DNA of 64,000 nucleotides from positions 1 to 64,000 of the forward strand of contig JAFXNQ010000035.1 in NCBI GenBank assembly GCA_017529425.1. The letters are read 5' to 3'. Origin of the DNA: Bacteroidales bacterium. GTDB lineage: Bacteria; Bacteroidota; Bacteroidia; Bacteroidales; UBA932. Below, piece after piece: positions 413 to 9,143 of the stretch. Each line of letters opens with the position of its first letter. The first letter of the stretch is position 1. A model generated the notes under the pieces. That model saw only the letters and a program-made list of their open reading frames with translations, had not been told where the DNA came from and did no database searches. Both the position numbers and the translations under genes were made by a program.

Positions 413-1531
413 CTATGGACGATTGAGCCACATGCCCATCACGGGATCTGATAGGAATGTCTTATTATTGTCGCTGTAAATCAAGCCTTTCTCCAGAAGG
501 GCTTTTCTTGTTGTCACAGATGCCGCAGAAGACCCTAGTTTGTATTTACTTATAACCCCGGAAGAAGAAAAGCCTTCATACACCCCATCTGAGACAGCTC
601 TCAAAAAACGCATCTGAACCGGAGTCAAATTCTCAGTGCGGCTTTCGAATAACGCCGTATTTTGTGCAACAAGTTCCTCAAGTCCAGCCTCGATATCTGC
701 ATCACTCACCGCTTTGTCAGAGAAAAGATACACATACCAGCTAAGCTGCTGGACATATGAAGAATGATAATCCACGGAGTCACATATTCTTTCTATCTGG
801 TGCTCAGAAATAGTTTTACCTGAAGCCTTAAACTTACCGGAGATAAAGGTATTCCAGTACGAGAACGGTATCTTTTTCAAGTACAGTATATCGCCAAACT
901 TATAGAATGGCTTAGTCTCGTCGTTAAACAGGCCTTCCATCATATGTCGCTTACTTCCAAACAGGCAGTATGATACATTCTCCTGGTGTTGCCAAACCGT
1001 TCTCAACTGCTTCTGGAAAGAAACGCTGTCTTCAAATTCTGCTATCTGTTGGAACTCGTCTATGCAGATAACGATATGAACTTTCTTTTTCTCTGCTATA
1101 CGTTCAGGGAGTTGCAATAATTCTTCCATTGTCTGGACATCGCCATTCAGCCCAAACTGGAGCTGGACGGGATTAATCTCATCGGCAGCCAGATTGACAC
1201 TCATGCTGAGCCGGCCGAGAAATCTTTTTGCATTTACAACGAGCTCATCGAATGCCGATGAAGTCTGTTTCAGCACAGTATTTGCTAAAAGCTCACAAAA
1301 ATCGGCAGGTGTTTTTGCTTTGAAAACGTCAGCAAACACACACATAATCCCAGAGCCCTCGGTTTCCTTTATTACTTTCTTGACAAGAGAAGTCTTGCCC
1401 CAGCGCCTGGGAGAGATAATAAACGTGTTAATACCCGCCTCGAAACTAGCCTTAAGCCTTGCTGATTCCTGCACTCTGTCTGTAAATGACTCGTCGGCAA
1501 CTGGTTTTCCAAAAATAAATACCTGCTTCAT
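413..1531 (-). CDS. AAA-type ATPase, archaeal-ATPase-like family
   Basis: A 372-residue P-loop ATPase. The Walker A motif is SPRRWGKTSL (residues 40-49) and the Walker B is VICIDEF (about 154-160, D158/E159). The PRRWGKTSL form is typical of the predicted AAA ATPases of the COG1672 group that are common in Bacteroidales. The C-terminal 90 residues look like a winged helix (LTPVQMRFLRAV, then GSSAASVTTRKALLEKGLI), as usual in this family. The cellular role is unknown; such genes are often accessory and stand alone, as here. The ATG at 1531 has a good promoter 23 bases upstream and a palindrome over its -33 box, so expression is probably repressor-controlled. It is unrelated in sequence to its neighbours. 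Confidence 0.8.
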   Translation of the reverse strand: MKQVFIFGKPVADESFTDRVQESARLKASFEAGINTFIISPRRWGKTSLVKKVIKETEGSGIMCVFADVFKAKTPADFCELLANTVLKQTSSAFDELVVNAKRFLGRLSMSVNLAADEINPVQLQFGLNGDVQTMEELLQLPERIAEKKKVHIVICIDEFQQIAEFEDSVSFQKQLRTVWQHQENVSYCLFGSKRHMMEGLFNDETKPFYKFGDILYLKKIPFSYWNTFISGKFKASGKTISEHQIERICDSVDYHSSYVQQLSWYVYLFSDKAVSDADIEAGLEELVAQNTALFESRTENLTPVQMRFLRAVSDGVYEGFSSSGVISKYKLGSSAASVTTRKALLEKGLIYSDNNKTFLSDPVMGMWLNRP

Positions 1532-2078: not shown

Positions 2079-2118
2079 AAAAAAAACACTCCGGTAAAGG
2101 TAAACCCTGCCCGGAGTG
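2079..2118 (-). terminator. Intrinsic terminator closing RNA element copy A
   Basis: On the minus strand an 8-bp stem CACTCCGG/CCGGAGTG (2111-2118 with 2087-2094) is followed by eight T (2086-2079). It is conserved in copy B. Confidence 0.85.
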
Positions 2119-2246
2119 CTATCCAAAATTATTGTGACGGCCTAACGGCCGTTTGGGTCGAGGGGCTGCCGCCCCTATGACAGGAGGTTTTGATGCTGTC
2201 CGCATTCGCAAACAGCTGGCAGTCCGTGCTTACGCCCAAGACTGCC
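2087..2246 (-). ncRNA. Structured 3'-flank RNA element, copy A (five hairpins)
   Basis: Read on the minus strand, right after a FISUMP gene-tail remnant: H1 stem GGCAGTC/GACTGCC (2246-2240 with 2224-2218), H2 GCTGTTTGC/GCGGACAGC with loop GAAT (2216-2195), H3 GGGGC/GCCCC with loop GGCA (2175-2162), H4 ACGGCC/GGCCGT (2152-2137), then the terminator stem. In copy B, H1 and H2 have different stem bases that still pair, whereas the H1 loop core GGGCGTAAG is unchanged. This argues for selection on RNA structure. It may be a 3' UTR, a small RNA released from it, or a DNA cruciform site. I do not recognise a named family. Confidence 0.65.
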
Positions 2247-2260
2247 TTTTATTGCTGCGC

Positions 2261-2300
2261 TTATTCTGTAACGGGACGGACTGACTACCCGTCGTAACGG
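2261..2300 (-). pseudogene. Tail remnant of a FISUMP-domain gene
   Basis: On the minus strand the last codons before TAA (2263-2261) read SVRPVTE, preceded by an in-frame TAG and RYDG. The intact gene at 5196-9143 ends RCYGQSVRAVSE, followed by the same downstream element at the same distance. So 2261-2300 is the end of a lost paralogue whose Gln codon has become TAG. Similarity stops near 2300, where the GTATC array begins. Confidence 0.7.
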
Positions 2301-2305
2301 TTGTT

Positions 2306-2358
2306 GTATCAGGTGTATCGCCTGTATCGCCCCCGATACACCCGATACACCCCGATAC
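2306..2358. promoter_or_regulatory. Array of six GTATC/GATAC half-sites, three forward then three inverted
   Basis: GTATC occurs at 2306, 2315 and 2324, then GATAC at 2335, 2344 and 2354. Spacing is 9, 9, 11, 9 and 10 bp, about one helical turn. The central part (2312-2329 against 2334-2351) is a near-perfect inverted repeat. The array ends 11 bp before the -33 box of the AlbA_2 gene, so it is a candidate operator or activator platform. Alternatively it could extrude as a hairpin. Confidence 0.5.
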
Positions 2359-2368
2359 GCCAAAACTC

Positions 2369-2401
2369 TTTTGAGGAACAAGAATGATTAAGTTATATTT
2401 G
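2369..2401 (+). promoter_or_regulatory. Promoter of the AlbA_2 gene
   Basis: TTTTG (2369-2373), a 20-bp spacer and TATATTTG (2394-2401) match the Bacteroidales sigma consensus exactly. The transcript would begin around 2407, beyond the ATG at 2404. Translation is therefore expected from the ATG at 2422. Confidence 0.75.
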
Positions 2402-2421
2402 CTATGAGAAAACGATTTAAT

Positions 2422-3753
2422 ATGGACGAAAGCCAAAACATAGAATACAAGAAAATCTGGAAGGACGAATACCTCAAGTGGATTTGCGGCTTCGCCAACG
2501 CCAATGGCGGTCGCATTTTCCTTGGTTTAGATGACGATCCGCCATACGAAGTAGTAGGGCTCGACGACGCCGACAAACTGATGGAAGACCTGCCGAACAA
2601 AGTACGCGATGTTTTGGGCATCATGGTTGATGTTGACCTTCACCACGAGGGCGACAAGAAATACATTGAGATGACTGTAGAGCCATACCCCTATCCGGTT
2701 AACTACAAGGGACAATATCACTATCGCTCCGGCAGCACCAAGCAAGAACTCAAAGGCGCTGCTCTCAGCAAATTCCTCCTTGATAAGGTTGGCGTCCGAT
2801 GGTGCAATGTTCCTGTTCCTTCGGTAAGTATAGAAGACCTGAGTGCGGAATCAATACAGACATTCAAGGAGAAGGGTATCAAGAAGAAACGTCTGGACTC
2901 AGACGTTTTGAACGACAGCATATCTGATTTCCTGTCTTCTCTGGATTTAATGGCAGACGGTCAGATTTCGCGTGCTGGAGTACTCTTGTTCCATCCGAAG
3001 CCGGAGAAACTATTTCCCGGTTCCTTCATCAAGATAGGCTTCTTCCGAACAGATACAGATTTAGTCTTTCAAGACGAGATTCATGGCAGTCTGGTTCAAC
3101 AGGTAGATCGCACCTTCGATCTGCTCACCACCAAGTACATGAACTATATGATCTCATATGAGCAATTACAGCGAATCGAAACCCCGACATACCCGGAGGA
3201 TCCTATCAGAGAGTGCATCTTGAATTGCATTGCCCATAAAGATTACGCAGAGCAGATACCCATTCAAATCAGCGTCTATCCGGATCACATCGTTTTCTGG
3301 AACCCTGGCTCTCTACCAGAGTCCTGGACAGTGGAGAATCTCTATAAGAAGCACCCATCTTGCGCCTTTAATCCTGCCATAGCCAACGCATTCTTCCGTT
3401 GTGGCGAAATTGAAGCTTGGGGGCGAGGAATTGGAAAGATTATTGGTGGCGCTATTGAAGGAAAGCTACTGCCTCCTACTTTTGATGCCTCTTTTGGTGG
3501 ATTGATGGTTACATTCTTCAACAACCCTGCAGTACAACTAAAGGCGGCTGGGATAGATGCCAGAGGTGCTGACATCATTAAATATGTCCTTAATCAAAAA
3601 AGAATTACAAACTCAGAAACACAAAAACTACTGGGTGTTAGTAAAGCTACCGCTACTCGTCTTTTATCGTCCCTGTCTGATTATTTGATAGTGACGGGCA
3701 CTAGAGGTAAAGGAACTTATTATTCAATCAAAGGGCTCACAATTGGCTCATAA
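2422..3753 (+). CDS. AlbA_2/Schlafen-type putative DNA-binding protein with C-terminal winged helix
   Basis: A 443-residue protein from ATG 2422. The N terminus DESQNIEYKK..EYLKWICGFANANGGRIFLG is the hallmark of the AlbA_2 (divergent AAA_4, Schlafen AlbA_2) domain. The middle part (FPEDPIRECILNCIAHKDY, then NPGSLPES and AWGRGIGKI) matches the ATP-binding C-terminal region of the COG2865 group. The last 60 residues contain a winged helix (ITNSETQKLLGVSKATATRLLSSL). An upstream ATG at 2404 lies within a few bases of the promoter box and is probably untranscribed. Members are annotated as transcriptional regulators or RecG-like helicases; the actual function is unsettled and a role in defence is possible. 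The gene sits alone between two direct repeats, which suggests an acquired cassette. Confidence 0.8.
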   Translation: MDESQNIEYKKIWKDEYLKWICGFANANGGRIFLGLDDDPPYEVVGLDDADKLMEDLPNKVRDVLGIMVDVDLHHEGDKKYIEMTVEPYPYPVNYKGQYHYRSGSTKQELKGAALSKFLLDKVGVRWCNVPVPSVSIEDLSAESIQTFKEKGIKKKRLDSDVLNDSISDFLSSLDLMADGQISRAGVLLFHPKPEKLFPGSFIKIGFFRTDTDLVFQDEIHGSLVQQVDRTFDLLTTKYMNYMISYEQLQRIETPTYPEDPIRECILNCIAHKDYAEQIPIQISVYPDHIVFWNPGSLPESWTVENLYKKHPSCAFNPAIANAFFRCGEIEAWGRGIGKIIGGAIEGKLLPPTFDASFGGLMVTFFNNPAVQLKAAGIDARGADIIKYVLNQKRITNSETQKLLGVSKATATRLLSSLSDYLIVTGTRGKGTYYSIKGLTIGS

Positions 3754-3870
3754 TTGGCTCAAATCATAACATTACCTCTTCTGTTTCTGGGCAATAAATT
3801 AAAATAAGCGGCTGATATCCAGTCGCTTATTTATTGTTATTTTATTGTTGTTAATTGGCTCACAATTGGC
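3741..3870 (+). repeat. Two pairs of AATTGGCTCA direct repeats
   Basis: AATTGGCTCA occurs at 3741-3750 and 3752-3761, spanning the stop codon of the AlbA_2 gene. A near-identical pair lies 112 bp downstream at 3853-3862 and 3864-3873 (the last as AATTGGCGCA). The terminator of the gene lies between them. The pairs may mark a duplication or an old recombination junction. Confidence 0.5.
3813..3841 (+). terminator. Terminator of the AlbA_2 gene
   Basis: AATAAGCG (3813-3820) pairs with CGCTTATT (3834-3841), with an inner CTG/CAG extension. A T-rich stretch (TATTGTTATTTTATT) follows. It lies 60 bp after the stop codon. Confidence 0.7.
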
Positions 3871-3903
3871 GCATGGTCGCTTTATTCATCATTGCTATCT
3901 AAT

Positions 3904-4305
3904 AGCATCCTCAACGACAAAAAATTGATGGAGGGAGCCATCTCCTATACCTACAGAATCCTCAAGAAGCTCTCCTGATACGTTACCGACGGACGCTACA
4001 AGATAGACGACAATATTGTGGAGAACAGTATCCTGCCGCTGGCTCTGGGCCGCAAGAACTACCTGTTCTGCGGCGATGATGAAGCCGCCCAGAGGGCCTC
4101 AGTGGTCTACTCCCTGCTTGCCACCTGCAAGGCCCGCGGCGTTGACGAAAGAACATGGCTTGAAGATGTGCTCCGACGGATGCCTGAATACGAACTGGAC
4201 CAGAAGGACTTCTCTGAACTTCTTCCCGGCACTGGAAGCCGTCAACAAAGTCACTCTCACCAGAATCCCATTGAAACGAGAAAACTACGACTGACATCTC
4301 ACTGA
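3904..4305 (+). pseudogene. IS66-family transposase (TnpC) C-terminal remnant
   Basis: The frame reads KKLMEGAISYTYRILKKLS, a TGA stop at 3976-3978, then YVTDGRYKIDDN, IVENSILPLALGRKNYLF and CGDDEAAQRASVVYSLLATC. This is the conserved C-terminal end of IS66 TnpC (DGR..IDNN..EN..RP.ALGRKNYLF). The internal stop and the missing N terminus, TnpA and TnpB show that it is dead. GGATGCTTAC at 4345-4354 could be the old right inverted-repeat end (GTAAGC when read inwards), but no left end was found. Confidence 0.8.
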
Positions 4306-4706
4306 TGCCAGTCGCAATCTCACTTTGTCAATATGTACTTCTCCGGATGCTTACGGTAATCCTAGCTTACACAAAAATTACATATAGACATCCGAATCCA
4401 TTTCGTTCACACTTATGCACGCTCAGTGCAGATGCCTCCGCTTGCAATGCTTTCTGGGCAAAAATCTGCCCCTGAAAGCATTCAAGCTACGGACTTTATC
4501 TGCACTTTCGCTCTATCTCTGCGGTCCAGCCAAAGCGCCCCTACGGTTTGTTTGGGGCTCTACGAAACTTTGGCGGGAGCGCACCCCCTTTCCTTCATAA
4601 AGCCCTTGGCGCCTCCACTGCCGCATGGGACGGGTTGGACCGCCGCGGATATCTTTGCGCTTATGCCGGACGGGAGCGAATCCCGTAATTAAAACCACAT
4701 CCTCAT

Positions 4707-4792
4707 GGCACCTACATACCGTTTATACAATGTTGCTGTGAAAAAACACATGCGAAAGTCTGGAAAAGTCAAGGGTCAGGTATGTAGGTGCC
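4707..4792. repeat. Perfect 14-bp inverted repeat with 58-nt loop
   Basis: GGCACCTACATACC (4707-4720) is complementary to GGTATGTAGGTGCC (4779-4792). Only the second arm has a recognisable counterpart in copy A (CACGTAGGTGCCAC near 1828). The role is unknown. Confidence 0.6.
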
Positions 4793-5026
4793 ACTGAGCA
4801 CGTGGATATCAGTGCGAGTACATTCCAAAACACAAGAGCGGATGAAGTCTTGGTAATTACCTGAATACCAAGACTCTCGAACAGCACAGTCCGCTCTCGC
4901 TTGTCTGGGAGATGAGATAAAGCGAACTGCTTTCGGGTATAATACTATAACACAGGCCGTTAGCAAACACCCTCACGCGCTCGCCCTATAGAAATAATCA
5001 CTTTAACGAAGCACACTCAACTGTTG

Positions 5027-5064
5027 AAAAAACACTCCGGTAAAGGTAAACCCTGCCCGGAGTG
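5027..5064 (-). terminator. Intrinsic terminator of the FISUMP lipoprotein gene
   Basis: On the minus strand the CACTCCGG/CCGGAGTG stem (5064-5057 with 5040-5033) is followed by six T. It is identical in stem and loop to the terminator of copy A and lies about 130 nt after the stop codon. Confidence 0.85.
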
Positions 5065-5193
5065 CTATCCAAAATTATTGTGACGTCATAACGTCCGATT
5101 GGGTCGGTGGGGCTGTCGCCCCAATGACAGGAGATTTTGATGCTACCCGCATACGCAGGTAGCTGACTCGCTGGACTTACGCCCTTGCGAGTC
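5033..5193 (-). ncRNA. Structured 3'-flank RNA element, copy B (five hairpins)
   Basis: It begins three bases after the TAA of the FISUMP gene. On the minus strand: H1 GACTCGC/GCGAGTC (5193-5165), H2 GCTACCTGC/GCGGGTAGC with loop GTAT (5163-5142), H3 GGGGC/GCCCC with loop GACA (5122-5109), H4 GACGT/ACGTC (5095-5082), then the terminator. Relative to copy A, four of seven H1 pairs and two of nine H2 pairs are changed on both sides with pairing kept. Transcription of the upstream gene would run straight through it. Confidence 0.65.
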
Positions 5194-5195
5194 TT

Positions 5196-8100
5196 TTATT
5201 CTGAAACAGCGCGGACTGATTGCCCGTAGCAGCGGCTGCAGTAGCCCCTGTCGACTTCATCCGAACTGAAGTCCACGAACCACGCGCGGCCCGGGTAGTC
5301 CGTAAGGAGGGAAGAAGACCAGTAGTCGCCGTAGGAGGCCGCATAGTAGAGGTTGGTATCGTACCGGAAGCCAGCGGCGGGCAGGAATATGCTGTTGCCG
5401 TTGGGGCCGGTGACAAGCGTTCCATTTACACCGTTCCGAGTAGTCCATGTCCAGGTGCATTCGGTCCTCAGTTCTGTCCACTCTGCATCAGTGGGCATTC
5501 GCCAGCTACCACCCCAATTGGCCCTTGCGGCATCGTCCACTACCTCCAACGTGATTATATTATCCACAACGGGACCGTATGAACTCATAGTGTTGTACTT
5601 GGTTAACGTTTTATAACTACCATTGCACCATTTGTATGATGCAAATTTGTATCCAGACTTGTTTGCCTTCCAGCTTCTGCAAGGATCATCCTGAAAATGG
5701 CCTTCAGTATAATACGGCACAGTTTCACCCCAGGCGAAATAATCGCCATATTCCTCTGGCGTTTTAGCACCCACATTGCAGGTTGCCCATTTGAGTCCGG
5801 ACGGGAGACCAAGGTCAACCCAGCCATATCCATTCTGAACACCTGAAGAAGGTTTTTCTTTGACCGTGGCTAAGCAGGTGATGTTGCCTTCCGCAACTAG
5901 TTTGCAAAGTTTGTACGTGAAAGGCTCAACGCCGGAGTCAACGGTATAGGTAACACGATACCTTGCCTTGAATTCCTTCTGGAGAGCTGCACAATGGTTA
6001 TCCCACTTGATCTTGCCATCCTCGCTGACGGTCAGACGGGCATCCACGAGGTGTTCCTTACCATCTGCTGTAAGGAGCTCAATACTGTCAACGGTGAAAG
6101 TGAGTCCACCATACTCATACTGAGCATCTGTGATTTCATCCGACGAGGTTTTAGAATTATAAACAACTGCAGGATTGGCCTCCTTGTTCTCTCTGATAAT
6201 GATACCGTCGGTACCGTCATCAGTGAAAAGTTCGTAGTAAGAAGGATTCTTCACCGTAGGAAGTTCAATATCGGGAGCAGAAGCCACCATGAATGGCATA
6301 ACGAACTTCACGAAATAATCGTGAGTGCATACGTTACCATTGTCAAGATCCATGGACTGACGGACGGTATAAAGCTTGTCAGAGGTGAGGTAATCTGTGA
6401 GCTCGATAGATGCAGCATACATGTCGGTACCATCGTTAATAACAGCACCGGTCTGCTGTTTATTATTAACCAACGGCAAAGAGAAGGATATTGAGCTGTG
6501 GTTGCCAGGAGCTGTCCAGCCTTCTAACTCATCTTCAAAATGGTCCTTGAGAGCGGAGTACATCCGGTAACGTTTGTGCCAGCCGTACATCATTCCCCTA
6601 ACCTCAACGGTGTTCTCATCAATCTTGTTGCTGCCGTGTGCCGCCCAACCATGATTCGGATGGATCACTTTATATTCGCCCTTGATTACGATAGGAGGAT
6701 AATCATGATCATCGAACGGGATTATCTTGAAGAGAACATAACCGGAGGCATTCTCTTCAATGGTGTCGAAGACCCTGATGGTGAACAGAGAGGTCTCAAC
6801 AGCATCAACATAGAAGTCAACACCGGCCCTCACACAAGGCCAAGAAGTATTATGGAAGTAAGGGGGATCAAAGATAGGCGAATCAGCGCCATTATGCCAG
6901 TACTCGATAACAACATTGTCAATATCGTACTTTTTCTTGAAGTCATCATAGGAAAGTTTCACGCCGTCTGCATTGAGGACGAACTTGTTAAACTTATCCA
7001 AAGAATAGCTGCAAACTACAGAACCCACCTCGTGACTATCAAATACAGTGTACTTAATGTCCTCATACTTAATCTCCCCAGAGAAGCCTTCAGGATAGAT
7101 GACAGGCTTGGGGTCTGTGTTTAAATTATTAACCGCGATGAACTCGGAGGTGATGTCGGTGCCGCCGGAGGCGTTGTCGATGACGCGAAGGGCCACCGCC
7201 TTGACGGAGCCGGTCGCGTAATCGGATGAGCGGACCGTGATGCGGCCGTCGCTGGTCGCCTTGATGCTGGTGACGCCAATGGCGCTGACACTGCCGTTGC
7301 CGTCGGTGGTCATCAGTTCAAGGCTCAGCTGCTTTTTGCTGAATCTTGTCTTGATTATCTCCGCCAAATATGCGGGAGAAACCAGGTAATCCAGATCCAG
7401 ATACTTGCTGCCGGAGCTATTGGCACTCTCTTTCACGTGGCCGTTATCCTGCGCCATTACAACTACGCTCTGCAGACGGTCCCTGAGGTTGGTGTAGGCA
7501 TCATAGACGGGGAGTGTGAACGTGGTGCCGTCATGAAGGGTTATGGTGCAGCTGTCCTTTACTACATTTACGCCCGCTACTGGATCGACTCCGTCCCTTA
7601 TGGTCTCCATCACCACCGTCATGTTCTCTTCGAAGTAGTTGCGCACCAGAACGGAGAGCACATCGATATCGAAAATCTCCAGATAGTAGGATTTGAGGTA
7701 GTTCGTTACTATGTTCTCCACGATATCCACGCTGATAATCGTGGTATGGTGCGTTTCCAGGTATGTCCTGATGGAGGTCTCGAACACCGTGCGGTCTATA
7801 TGCCTGTTATAGTTCTTCTGGAAATAGTTGTCCACGACCTCATACAGGACAGTCTCATTGAATATCGTGCTGGTATTGGTCCTCACATAGTCGTTAACTA
7901 TCATCCGGATTACATCATTGGTGATGACGGTGGAGCTGTTGTTCCTCATATAGACGTTGAGTATATCCTTCAGCAGGGTTTCATTGATGATGGTGGTACT
8001 GGTCTGCGAGACATACACGTTGAGCATCCGCACGAGGATATCCTCCCGGAATATGTTCACATAGTATTTCTCCACGTACTTCATCATTATCTCACGCACC

Positions 8101-9143
8101 GACAGTGTGTTGAACACCTCGTCGCGGTGATGGTCCACATAGTTTGTGACTACCTGCGTGAGCAGGTTGATGTCTATGCTGACCTCGCTCTGAGCGAAGA
8201 AGTTGTTGATGACCTCCAAGAGCATCTCGCTTGTAAAGATGCTCGTATTGTTTATGCTTACGTAGCTTGATATAATCTCATAGAGCACCTCGCTGTCCAT
8301 GAAAACCATCTCATCCTTCTGGATGTTGTCCACTATGATGGTCACCAGCTTGTCAACGTCTATCTGGCTCGTGTAATAGGCAAAGTCGTACTGCGTGAAT
8401 ATCTGCTCCAGCAGCGTATAGCTGAAAAGGCGTTCGTGCTTCTCGCGGATATATCCTGCAACAACCTCGTCCAGAATCGCTATATTGAACAGGGACTTGT
8501 AGTTATCCTGTATGTATGTGGAGATGATCTGGAAAAGGACGGTTTTGTCTATCAGGGTGCTGCTGTACTGGCTGAAATAATTGTTGATGACCTGCATCAG
8601 CACCCGGTTGTTTATCACCACGGAGGCGTACGCGTTGATATCCTTGAATGTAACTCCGCCGTCAACAGAAATCAGATAACACATACTATCCGCATCATAC
8701 TTGAGTATCGGAGCCGCTTCCGTGGCATGAACCGGAGTGCCCGAAGCATCCGTAAGCAACACGCCGTCGGTAGTCCAGAAAAACATGCCGCCCAGCTGCA
8801 TCACTCCGATAGAGGGCAGCGATGCGGCGGCACCGTCACCCTGTCCTTCCTGGATGAATATGGTCGTACCGTTGCTGATGGCCAGCTCATAGCCGTCCGC
8901 AGTCTTGTTGACTGCGGTGATATAGAAGTTCTGCTCTACGGCCGCGGCCAGGGCAGATATCTGCTTCAGACTGTCATTGATCCCGGACAAGTCTGTTTCC
9001 AGCTTGCCCACACGGCCTTCTATCGCTTCTGCCTTCTCCGTCAGGGCGTCTATATCCTCCTGGTAGTTGTTGGCGCACGAAGCCGCGGCAAGCGCCGTGA
9101 AAGTAGCCGCCAGTATGGTTGTCAATCTGTATAATTGCTTCAT
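5196..9143 (-). CDS. Large surface lipoprotein: coiled coil, sixteen 21-residue repeats, C-terminal FISUMP domain
   Basis: A 1315-residue protein with an SPII signal (Cys23 in AAASC). Layout: coiled coil (about 28-65); a DUF4988-like beta region ending near 165 (FFWTTDGVLLTDASG); sixteen 20-22-residue repeats (about 175-510) of the form IFNxxxLxxVxNxYxxxNxTx, probably helical; a beta domain (about 520-670); a 430-residue extension (672-1103); and a FISUMP/Fib_succ_major domain (1104-1315: YGWVDLGLPSGLKWATCNVGA, GGSWRMPTDAEW, YWSSS, GQSVRAV). Residues 1-671 align end to end with the neighbouring 664-residue protein. The extension (DNA 5.85-7.13 kb) looks more AT-rich than the repeat half, so the gene is probably a mosaic. 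FISUMP domains are known targets of diversity-generating retroelements, but no reverse transcriptase is present here. Expected on the outer-membrane surface; ligand unknown. Confidence 0.75.
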   Translation of the reverse strand: MKQLYRLTTILAATFTALAAASCANNYQEDIDALTEKAEAIEGRVGKLETDLSGINDSLKQISALAAAVEQNFYITAVNKTADGYELAISNGTTIFIQEGQGDGAAASLPSIGVMQLGGMFFWTTDGVLLTDASGTPVHATEAAPILKYDADSMCYLISVDGGVTFKDINAYASVVINNRVLMQVINNYFSQYSSTLIDKTVLFQIISTYIQDNYKSLFNIAILDEVVAGYIREKHERLFSYTLLEQIFTQYDFAYYTSQIDVDKLVTIIVDNIQKDEMVFMDSEVLYEIISSYVSINNTSIFTSEMLLEVINNFFAQSEVSIDINLLTQVVTNYVDHHRDEVFNTLSVREIMMKYVEKYYVNIFREDILVRMLNVYVSQTSTTIINETLLKDILNVYMRNNSSTVITNDVIRMIVNDYVRTNTSTIFNETVLYEVVDNYFQKNYNRHIDRTVFETSIRTYLETHHTTIISVDIVENIVTNYLKSYYLEIFDIDVLSVLVRNYFEENMTVVMETIRDGVDPVAGVNVVKDSCTITLHDGTTFTLPVYDAYTNLRDRLQSVVVMAQDNGHVKESANSSGSKYLDLDYLVSPAYLAEIIKTRFSKKQLSLELMTTDGNGSVSAIGVTSIKATSDGRITVRSSDYATGSVKAVALRVIDNASGGTDITSEFIAVNNLNTDPKPVIYPEGFSGEIKYEDIKYTVFDSHEVGSVVCSYSLDKFNKFVLNADGVKLSYDDFKKKYDIDNVVIEYWHNGADSPIFDPPYFHNTSWPCVRAGVDFYVDAVETSLFTIRVFDTIEENASGYVLFKIIPFDDHDYPPIVIKGEYKVIHPNHGWAAHGSNKIDENTVEVRGMMYGWHKRYRMYSALKDHFEDELEGWTAPGNHSSISFSLPLVNNKQQTGAVINDGTDMYAASIELTDYLTSDKLYTVRQSMDLDNGNVCTHDYFVKFVMPFMVASAPDIELPTVKNPSYYELFTDDGTDGIIIRENKEANPAVVYNSKTSSDEITDAQYEYGGLTFTVDSIELLTADGKEHLVDARLTVSEDGKIKWDNHCAALQKEFKARYRVTYTVDSGVEPFTYKLCKLVAEGNITCLATVKEKPSSGVQNGYGWVDLGLPSGLKWATCNVGAKTPEEYGDYFAWGETVPYYTEGHFQDDPCRSWKANKSGYKFASYKWCNGSYKTLTKYNTMSSYGPVVDNIITLEVVDDAARANWGGSWRMPTDAEWTELRTECTWTWTTRNGVNGTLVTGPNGNSIFLPAAGFRYDTNLYYAASYGDYWSSSLLTDYPGRAWFVDFSSDEVDRGYCSRCYGQSVRAVSE

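Follow-up and report, generated by a model that had tools for sequence, protein, structure and literature searches.

In the diversity-generating retroelement (DGR) of BPP-1, a 24-bp stretch right behind the variable repeat (VR) forms a hairpin or cruciform in supercoiled DNA (Guo et al. 2011, PMC3240598). Its stem must pair while the stem sequence is free, its loop is sequence-dependent, and it boosts integration of complementary DNA (cDNA), acting as DNA in retrohoming (PMC3240598); without this repeat, homing is severely impaired (PMC12875486). Published phage elements consist of one hairpin each, with a stem of 7–10 bp and a 4-nt GRNA loop (PMC3240598). How a hairpin next to the VR aids the entry of mutated cDNA into its target is a question still open in the field. 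Here we describe two copies, A and B, of an array of four hairpins (H1 to H4) and a terminator-like hairpin in DNA of a Bacteroidales bacterium (GTDB UBA932; GCA_017529425.1, contig JAFXNQ010000035.1, positions 1–64,000; this whole 64,000-nt stretch is referred to as the window). The array is very probably a DGR target-site recognition structure, placed directly behind the VR of FISUMP surface-protein genes. This reading rests on the relation of the VR to a template repeat (TR), the adenine specificity of their differences, and the position, covariation, spread and absence behind the TR of the array itself.

The TR lies on contig C55 (locus L013), where the minus strand carries, in order, the end of a FISUMP gene, the hairpin array, a MutS-like (MSL) open reading frame (ORF), an Avd-like ORF, the TR, and a reverse transcriptase (RT) gene 1.4 kb away from the array copy. 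The RT (489 aa; PF00078, E=1e-14; phrog_1423, E=3e-84) shares 52–56% identity with RTs from Bacteroidales loci, including two with a TR/VR pair (L038 and L040); the Avd-like ORF matches NF033474 (E=2.7e-5, below the curated cut-off) and phrog_3206 (E=6e-7), and the MSL ORF matches MutS_I below the curated cut-off (E=0.0044). The TR is adenine-rich and 187 bp long (L013 6269–6083), and 29 of its 30 differences from the cis VR fall at TR adenines. Because the VR differences concentrate at these adenines, the C55 locus is identified, from its sequence, as a DGR. A group II intron or retron origin, raised by weak RT matches to NCBIfam models (group II, retron, Drt), was excluded by the TR/VR pair, Avd and phrog_1423. 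Compared with the same TR, the VR of the FISUMP gene in the window is changed at 28 of 55 TR adenines and at none of the 132 other positions (Fisher p=2.4e-18), and we read this gene as a remote (in trans) target of the C55 DGR. Its Pfam matches are DUF4988 (E=1.5e-21) and, both below the curated cut-off, Lcl_C (E=1.5e-5) and Fib_succ_major (E=0.023).

Two further observations concern this locus. The RT (L013:4446–5915, minus strand, C55; also L034 and L035) has its YVDD catalytic block repeated in an insert of degenerate tandem copies, about five in the genome of the window and three in G014; GLPIG..SQ and FLG are 155 and 117 aa apart, where the median of 81 RTs is 74; an assembly error is unlikely because the insert is seen in three genomes. 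Contigs C55 and C21 of G000 probably adjoin, since the 47 residues encoded by C21:1–141 are also those at the open end of the target gene on C55.

The position of the array follows the VR closely. H1 begins 7 nt (19 nt in copy A) downstream of the VR, inside the 4–34 bp range typical of the DGR target-site inverted repeat; at C55, neither the array nor other hairpins were found behind the TR. In copy B, H1 starts 2 nt past the FISUMP stop codon and 7 nt past the VR, and in all copies found except the orphan A, C19 and one copy at a contig edge, H1 starts 1–14 nt past the stop codon of a FISUMP gene. Over 17 copies at FISUMP genes, the distance is 1–2 nt from the stop (13–14 nt in A and C21) and about 7 nt from the VR end (18–19 nt in A and C21), and the FISUMP frame upstream of every copy that retains a gene terminates in SVRPVTE*, SVRAVSE* or a close variant. 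As a control, 57 DGR loci whose TR/VR pairs show adenine specificity were scanned for perfect hairpins (6 bp or longer) within 120 nt: 49 have one behind the VR and 6 behind the TR, against about 4 of 57 sequences after shuffling. Among the non-target FISUMP genes examined in the same genome, the located gene ends (all but those of three loci) are without an array, and a generic FISUMP 3'-untranslated element was excluded on this ground.

The original prediction described two minus-strand copies folding in the order H1-H2-H3-H4-terminator, and both the sequence and RNA folding bear this out. The copies (A, 2079–2246; B, 5027–5193, terminator-like hairpin included) sit within a repeat of about 470 bp with 78% identity and have fold z-scores of −7.0 (A) and −6.9 (B) against dinucleotide shuffles, 0 of 200 of which folded equally well; as single-stranded DNA, the array is predicted to fold stably on both strands. 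Four of the seven H1 pairs and two H2 pairs are altered on both sides between A and B, just as had been claimed. Searching the window's own genome at the DNA level yielded five further copies on other contigs, and in a six-copy MAFFT alignment 9 of 25 pairs are changed on both sides with 96.5% of cells paired, a value which falls to 34–42% when the partners are slid by 1–3 columns. The covariance model and homologue search proposed with the original prediction extended this to 20 copies (19 distinct) in eight genomes: 16 copies come from four genomes of the genus, the other four from a different genus of the family. Here 12 pairs are double-changed (54 cells), 96% of cells are paired, and covariation scores 0.344, compared with 0.110 for shuffled alignments; this alignment was fitted to the model and is hence biased toward structure, and the six-copy MAFFT alignment agrees with it. 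H1 (7 bp) and H2 (9 bp) each have five double-changed pairs, and both have GC-rich stems of the 7–10 bp class in which pairing rather than sequence is conserved. The H1 stem occurs as GACTCGC, GGCAGTC, GTCGGGC, GGACGGC and GGCTTGC, while 18 of the 20 copies have a GNAT loop in H2 and the H3 loops are GGCA, GACA and GGGA. Within the window's genome alone, eight copies have between them three H1 stem sequences and several for H2, with near-constant loops. The covariation across paralogues and genomes upholds the claim that selection acts on the structure of the array; on the target-site reading, stem sequences are free while pairing and loops are kept because the array acts as a recognition structure. 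In H2, the third pair from the loop (columns 44/54) is T-G or otherwise non-Watson–Crick in 18 of the 19 distinct copies, and a wobble at this place seems to be conserved on the sense strand.

The terminator, said to be unchanged between A and B, does fold as a terminator-like hairpin in both, but it is the fossil of a protein-coding gene. In complete DGR loci the MSL gene comes directly behind the array, and behind remote targets we find MSL remnants of graded length: 72 residues (C6 and C68), 62 (C19), 36 (G014 C39) and 23 (G295). In copies A and B, MSL is reduced to residues around 11–20 (DSTPGRVYLY), and the codons of these residues themselves form the terminator-like hairpin; with its T-run, the fossil may now be a genuine terminator. 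Because MSL is truncated to graded lengths behind them, the remote targets look like copies of a VR-array-MSL cassette.

Such targets are spread over the genome: array-bearing FISUMP genes occur on at least five contigs, and there are orphan copies as well. The location downstream of FISUMP genes given in the original prediction is correct for copy B, which follows an intact gene; copy A follows a 42-bp remnant only and is an orphaned target end. The VRs of C6 and C68 show 14–19 non-adenine differences from the C55 TR, and another template was considered for them because these differences partly coincide; the genome yielded no second TR, and the TR of G014 fits only slightly better (11–16 non-adenine differences). 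The gene at L016 has two FISUMP domains with VR-like stretches at 2157–2343 and 1245–1431, the array standing behind the terminal one only; the differences of the inner stretch from the TR are mostly at adenines (21 of 34).

In the mechanism that we propose, the C55 DGR would transcribe its adenine-rich TR, which the RT, with Avd, would copy into cDNA carrying random bases opposite adenines. This cDNA would replace the 3' end of any gene in which a matching VR and initiation of mutagenic homing site (VR/IMH) precede the hairpin array. The array, which probably extrudes to form a DNA hairpin or cruciform, would mark the VR as the acceptor and raise the efficiency of cDNA integration, and the lack of an array at the TR would shield the template from rewriting. 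Cruciform formation and the role in retrohoming are carried over from BPP-1 by analogy. The multi-hairpin array is a lineage-specific variant of the known target-site hairpin, since more distant relatives of the RT mostly have one hairpin. We suggest only tentatively that the array is a composite recognition module in which H1 and H2 act jointly, specific to the DGR lineage with the tandem YVDD duplication in its RT, and that the copied VR-array cassette recruits new genes as remote targets.

Several points weigh against the array being a DGR target site. The H1 cap (GTAA) and the H2 loop (GNAT) are off the published GRNA consensus; only H3 fits, and the GRNA-looped H3 has a short stem (5–6 bp) and lies farther from the VR. 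The known mechanism does not account for four hairpins instead of one. Finally, although a close RT is present in 3 of the 4 array-bearing genomes of the genus and in 0 of 22 array-less ones, G272, G279 and G290 (nearly complete), as well as G023, have the array behind FISUMP genes and no detectable RT (loci L064, L065, L063 and L049, respectively), which may reflect recent loss of the DGR, missing sequence, or a second role of the array.

Such a second role is the rival that survives best, if as an unlikely one: the array would be the DGR target hairpin and would also protect the mRNA 3' end, and so be retained after loss of the RT. That the arrays are still paired in the RT-less genomes, and 3'-untranslated in all FISUMP genes carrying one, fits this view; these genomes, however, may be incomplete or may have lost their DGR recently, and in G279 H1 is partly decayed. 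The purely RNA-based view of the original prediction, in which stacked hairpins at the mRNA 3' end act on surface-protein transcripts, stabilising or terminating them, or give rise to a small RNA, we consider very improbable. The strong predicted RNA fold (z about −7), the terminator-like hairpin with T6 in B and T8 in A, and the persistence of the array in four genomes without a detectable RT speak for it. Yet the DGR loci of C55, G006 and G014 have the array within a run of co-directed genes, with MSL, Avd, TR and RT still to follow, and have no terminator there; H1 contains few G-T pairs (2 of 125 cells); and the arrays stand 7–19 nt behind VRs and are absent behind the TR and behind the other FISUMP genes examined, so that mRNA stability, processing or small-RNA production is not supported as the primary role of the array, while an additional RNA role, for example 3'-end protection or termination in A and B, may exist. 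That the array is the end of a mobile element (a miniature inverted-repeat transposable element (MITE), an insertion sequence or an intron remnant), with hairpins that function in the transposition of that element, is hardly credible despite the many dispersed copies in one genome and other dispersed repeats nearby, given the restriction of copies to FISUMP 3' ends at fixed spacing, the lack of any transposase or terminal repeats seen, the absence of an Rfam family at threshold in the window, and a flank with graded MSL remnants, as expected of target-cassette duplication.

The features of both array copies and of the target gene are listed in the table below.

Table. Hairpin arrays, target gene and associated remnants in the window; all stem and loop sequences are those of the minus strand.
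Feature	Position	Strand	Description	Evidence
FISUMP surface-protein gene, remote DGR target	5196..9143	-	ORF; DUF4988 coiled coil and C-terminal Fib_succ_major/Lcl_C C-type-lectin-like domain	
VR of copy B	5201..5387	-	28 differences from C55 TR, all at TR adenines	
H1, copy B	5165..5193	-	stem GACTCGC/GCGAGTC, inner GGGC-GTAA-GTCC	sequence, folds, covariation
H2, copy B	5142..5163	-	9-bp stem GCTACCTGC/GCGGGTAGC, loop GTAT	fold, covariation
H3, copy B	5108..5123	-	TGGGGC-GACA-GCCCCA, GRNA-type loop	sequence, fold, covariation
H4, copy B	5082..5095	-	GACGT-TATG-ACGTC	sequence, fold
Terminator-like hairpin and T6, copy B	5027..5066	-	MSL 5'-end fossil, reads ...DSTPGRVYLY...	fold; tblastn to MSL residues 3–20
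FISUMP/VR 3'-end remnant, 42 bp, ahead of copy A	2266..2307	-	reads SVRPVTE*	
H1, copy A	2218..2246	-	stem GGCAGTC/GACTGCC, inner GGGC-GTAA-GCAC, one inner mismatch	sequence, fold
H2, copy A	2195..2216	-	stem GCTGTTTGC/GCGGACAGC, loop GAAT	sequence, fold
H3, copy A	2161..2176	-	AGGGGC-GGCA-GCCCCT, GRNA-type loop	sequence, fold
H4, copy A	2137..2152	-	ACGGCC-GTTA-GGCCGT	sequence, fold
Terminator-like hairpin and T8, copy A	2079..2120	-	MSL fossil DSTPGRVYLY	fold, MSL comparison

Elsewhere in the window, a perfect 22-bp palindrome (1571–1592, TTACTAAGTTGCAACTTAGTAA) lies directly upstream of an AAA-ATPase ORF (413–1531, minus strand) and is possibly its operator. A dispersed repeat of about 255 bp at 4420–4680, MITE-like or like a repetitive extragenic palindrome (REP), recurs at about 14 genomic places with 75–87% identity, unconnected to FISUMP genes.

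The eight copies of the array in one genome, at targets ranging from freshly rewritten (28 of 28 changes at adenines) to orphaned, form a natural set of compensatory mutants; they show a route by which a DGR can accumulate many targets among the surface proteins of a gut/rumen-type Bacteroidales genome, and the covariance model offers a way to detect remote DGR targets overlooked by TR-proximal searches.

The original prediction knew of no named family with this form, but in position and logic the array matches the published DGR target-site hairpin/cruciform (PMC3240598). Like the BPP-1 hairpin, it stands immediately 3' of the VR/IMH with none behind the TR, keeps its pairing while the stem sequence varies, and has GC-rich stems of 7–9 bp and conserved loop sequences; unlike it, the array has four hairpins, with an interrupted, GTAA-capped stem in H1, GNAT in H2 and a GRNA loop in H3 only. 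Archaeal DGRs (PMC4372165, Nat Commun 2015) likewise have a conserved inverted repeat downstream of the VR with a lineage-specific loop constraint (GRA triloops in the archaeal case), but as a single hairpin inside the target gene, whereas the array here lies past the stop codon. In contrast to the textbook DGR, the targets here are many and dispersed. Multi-target DGRs such as those of gut phage with two targets (PMC10743442) share with this one a single TR serving more than one VR gene; here the targets of a single bacterium extend over at least five contigs, together with orphans, and some are followed by MSL remnants.

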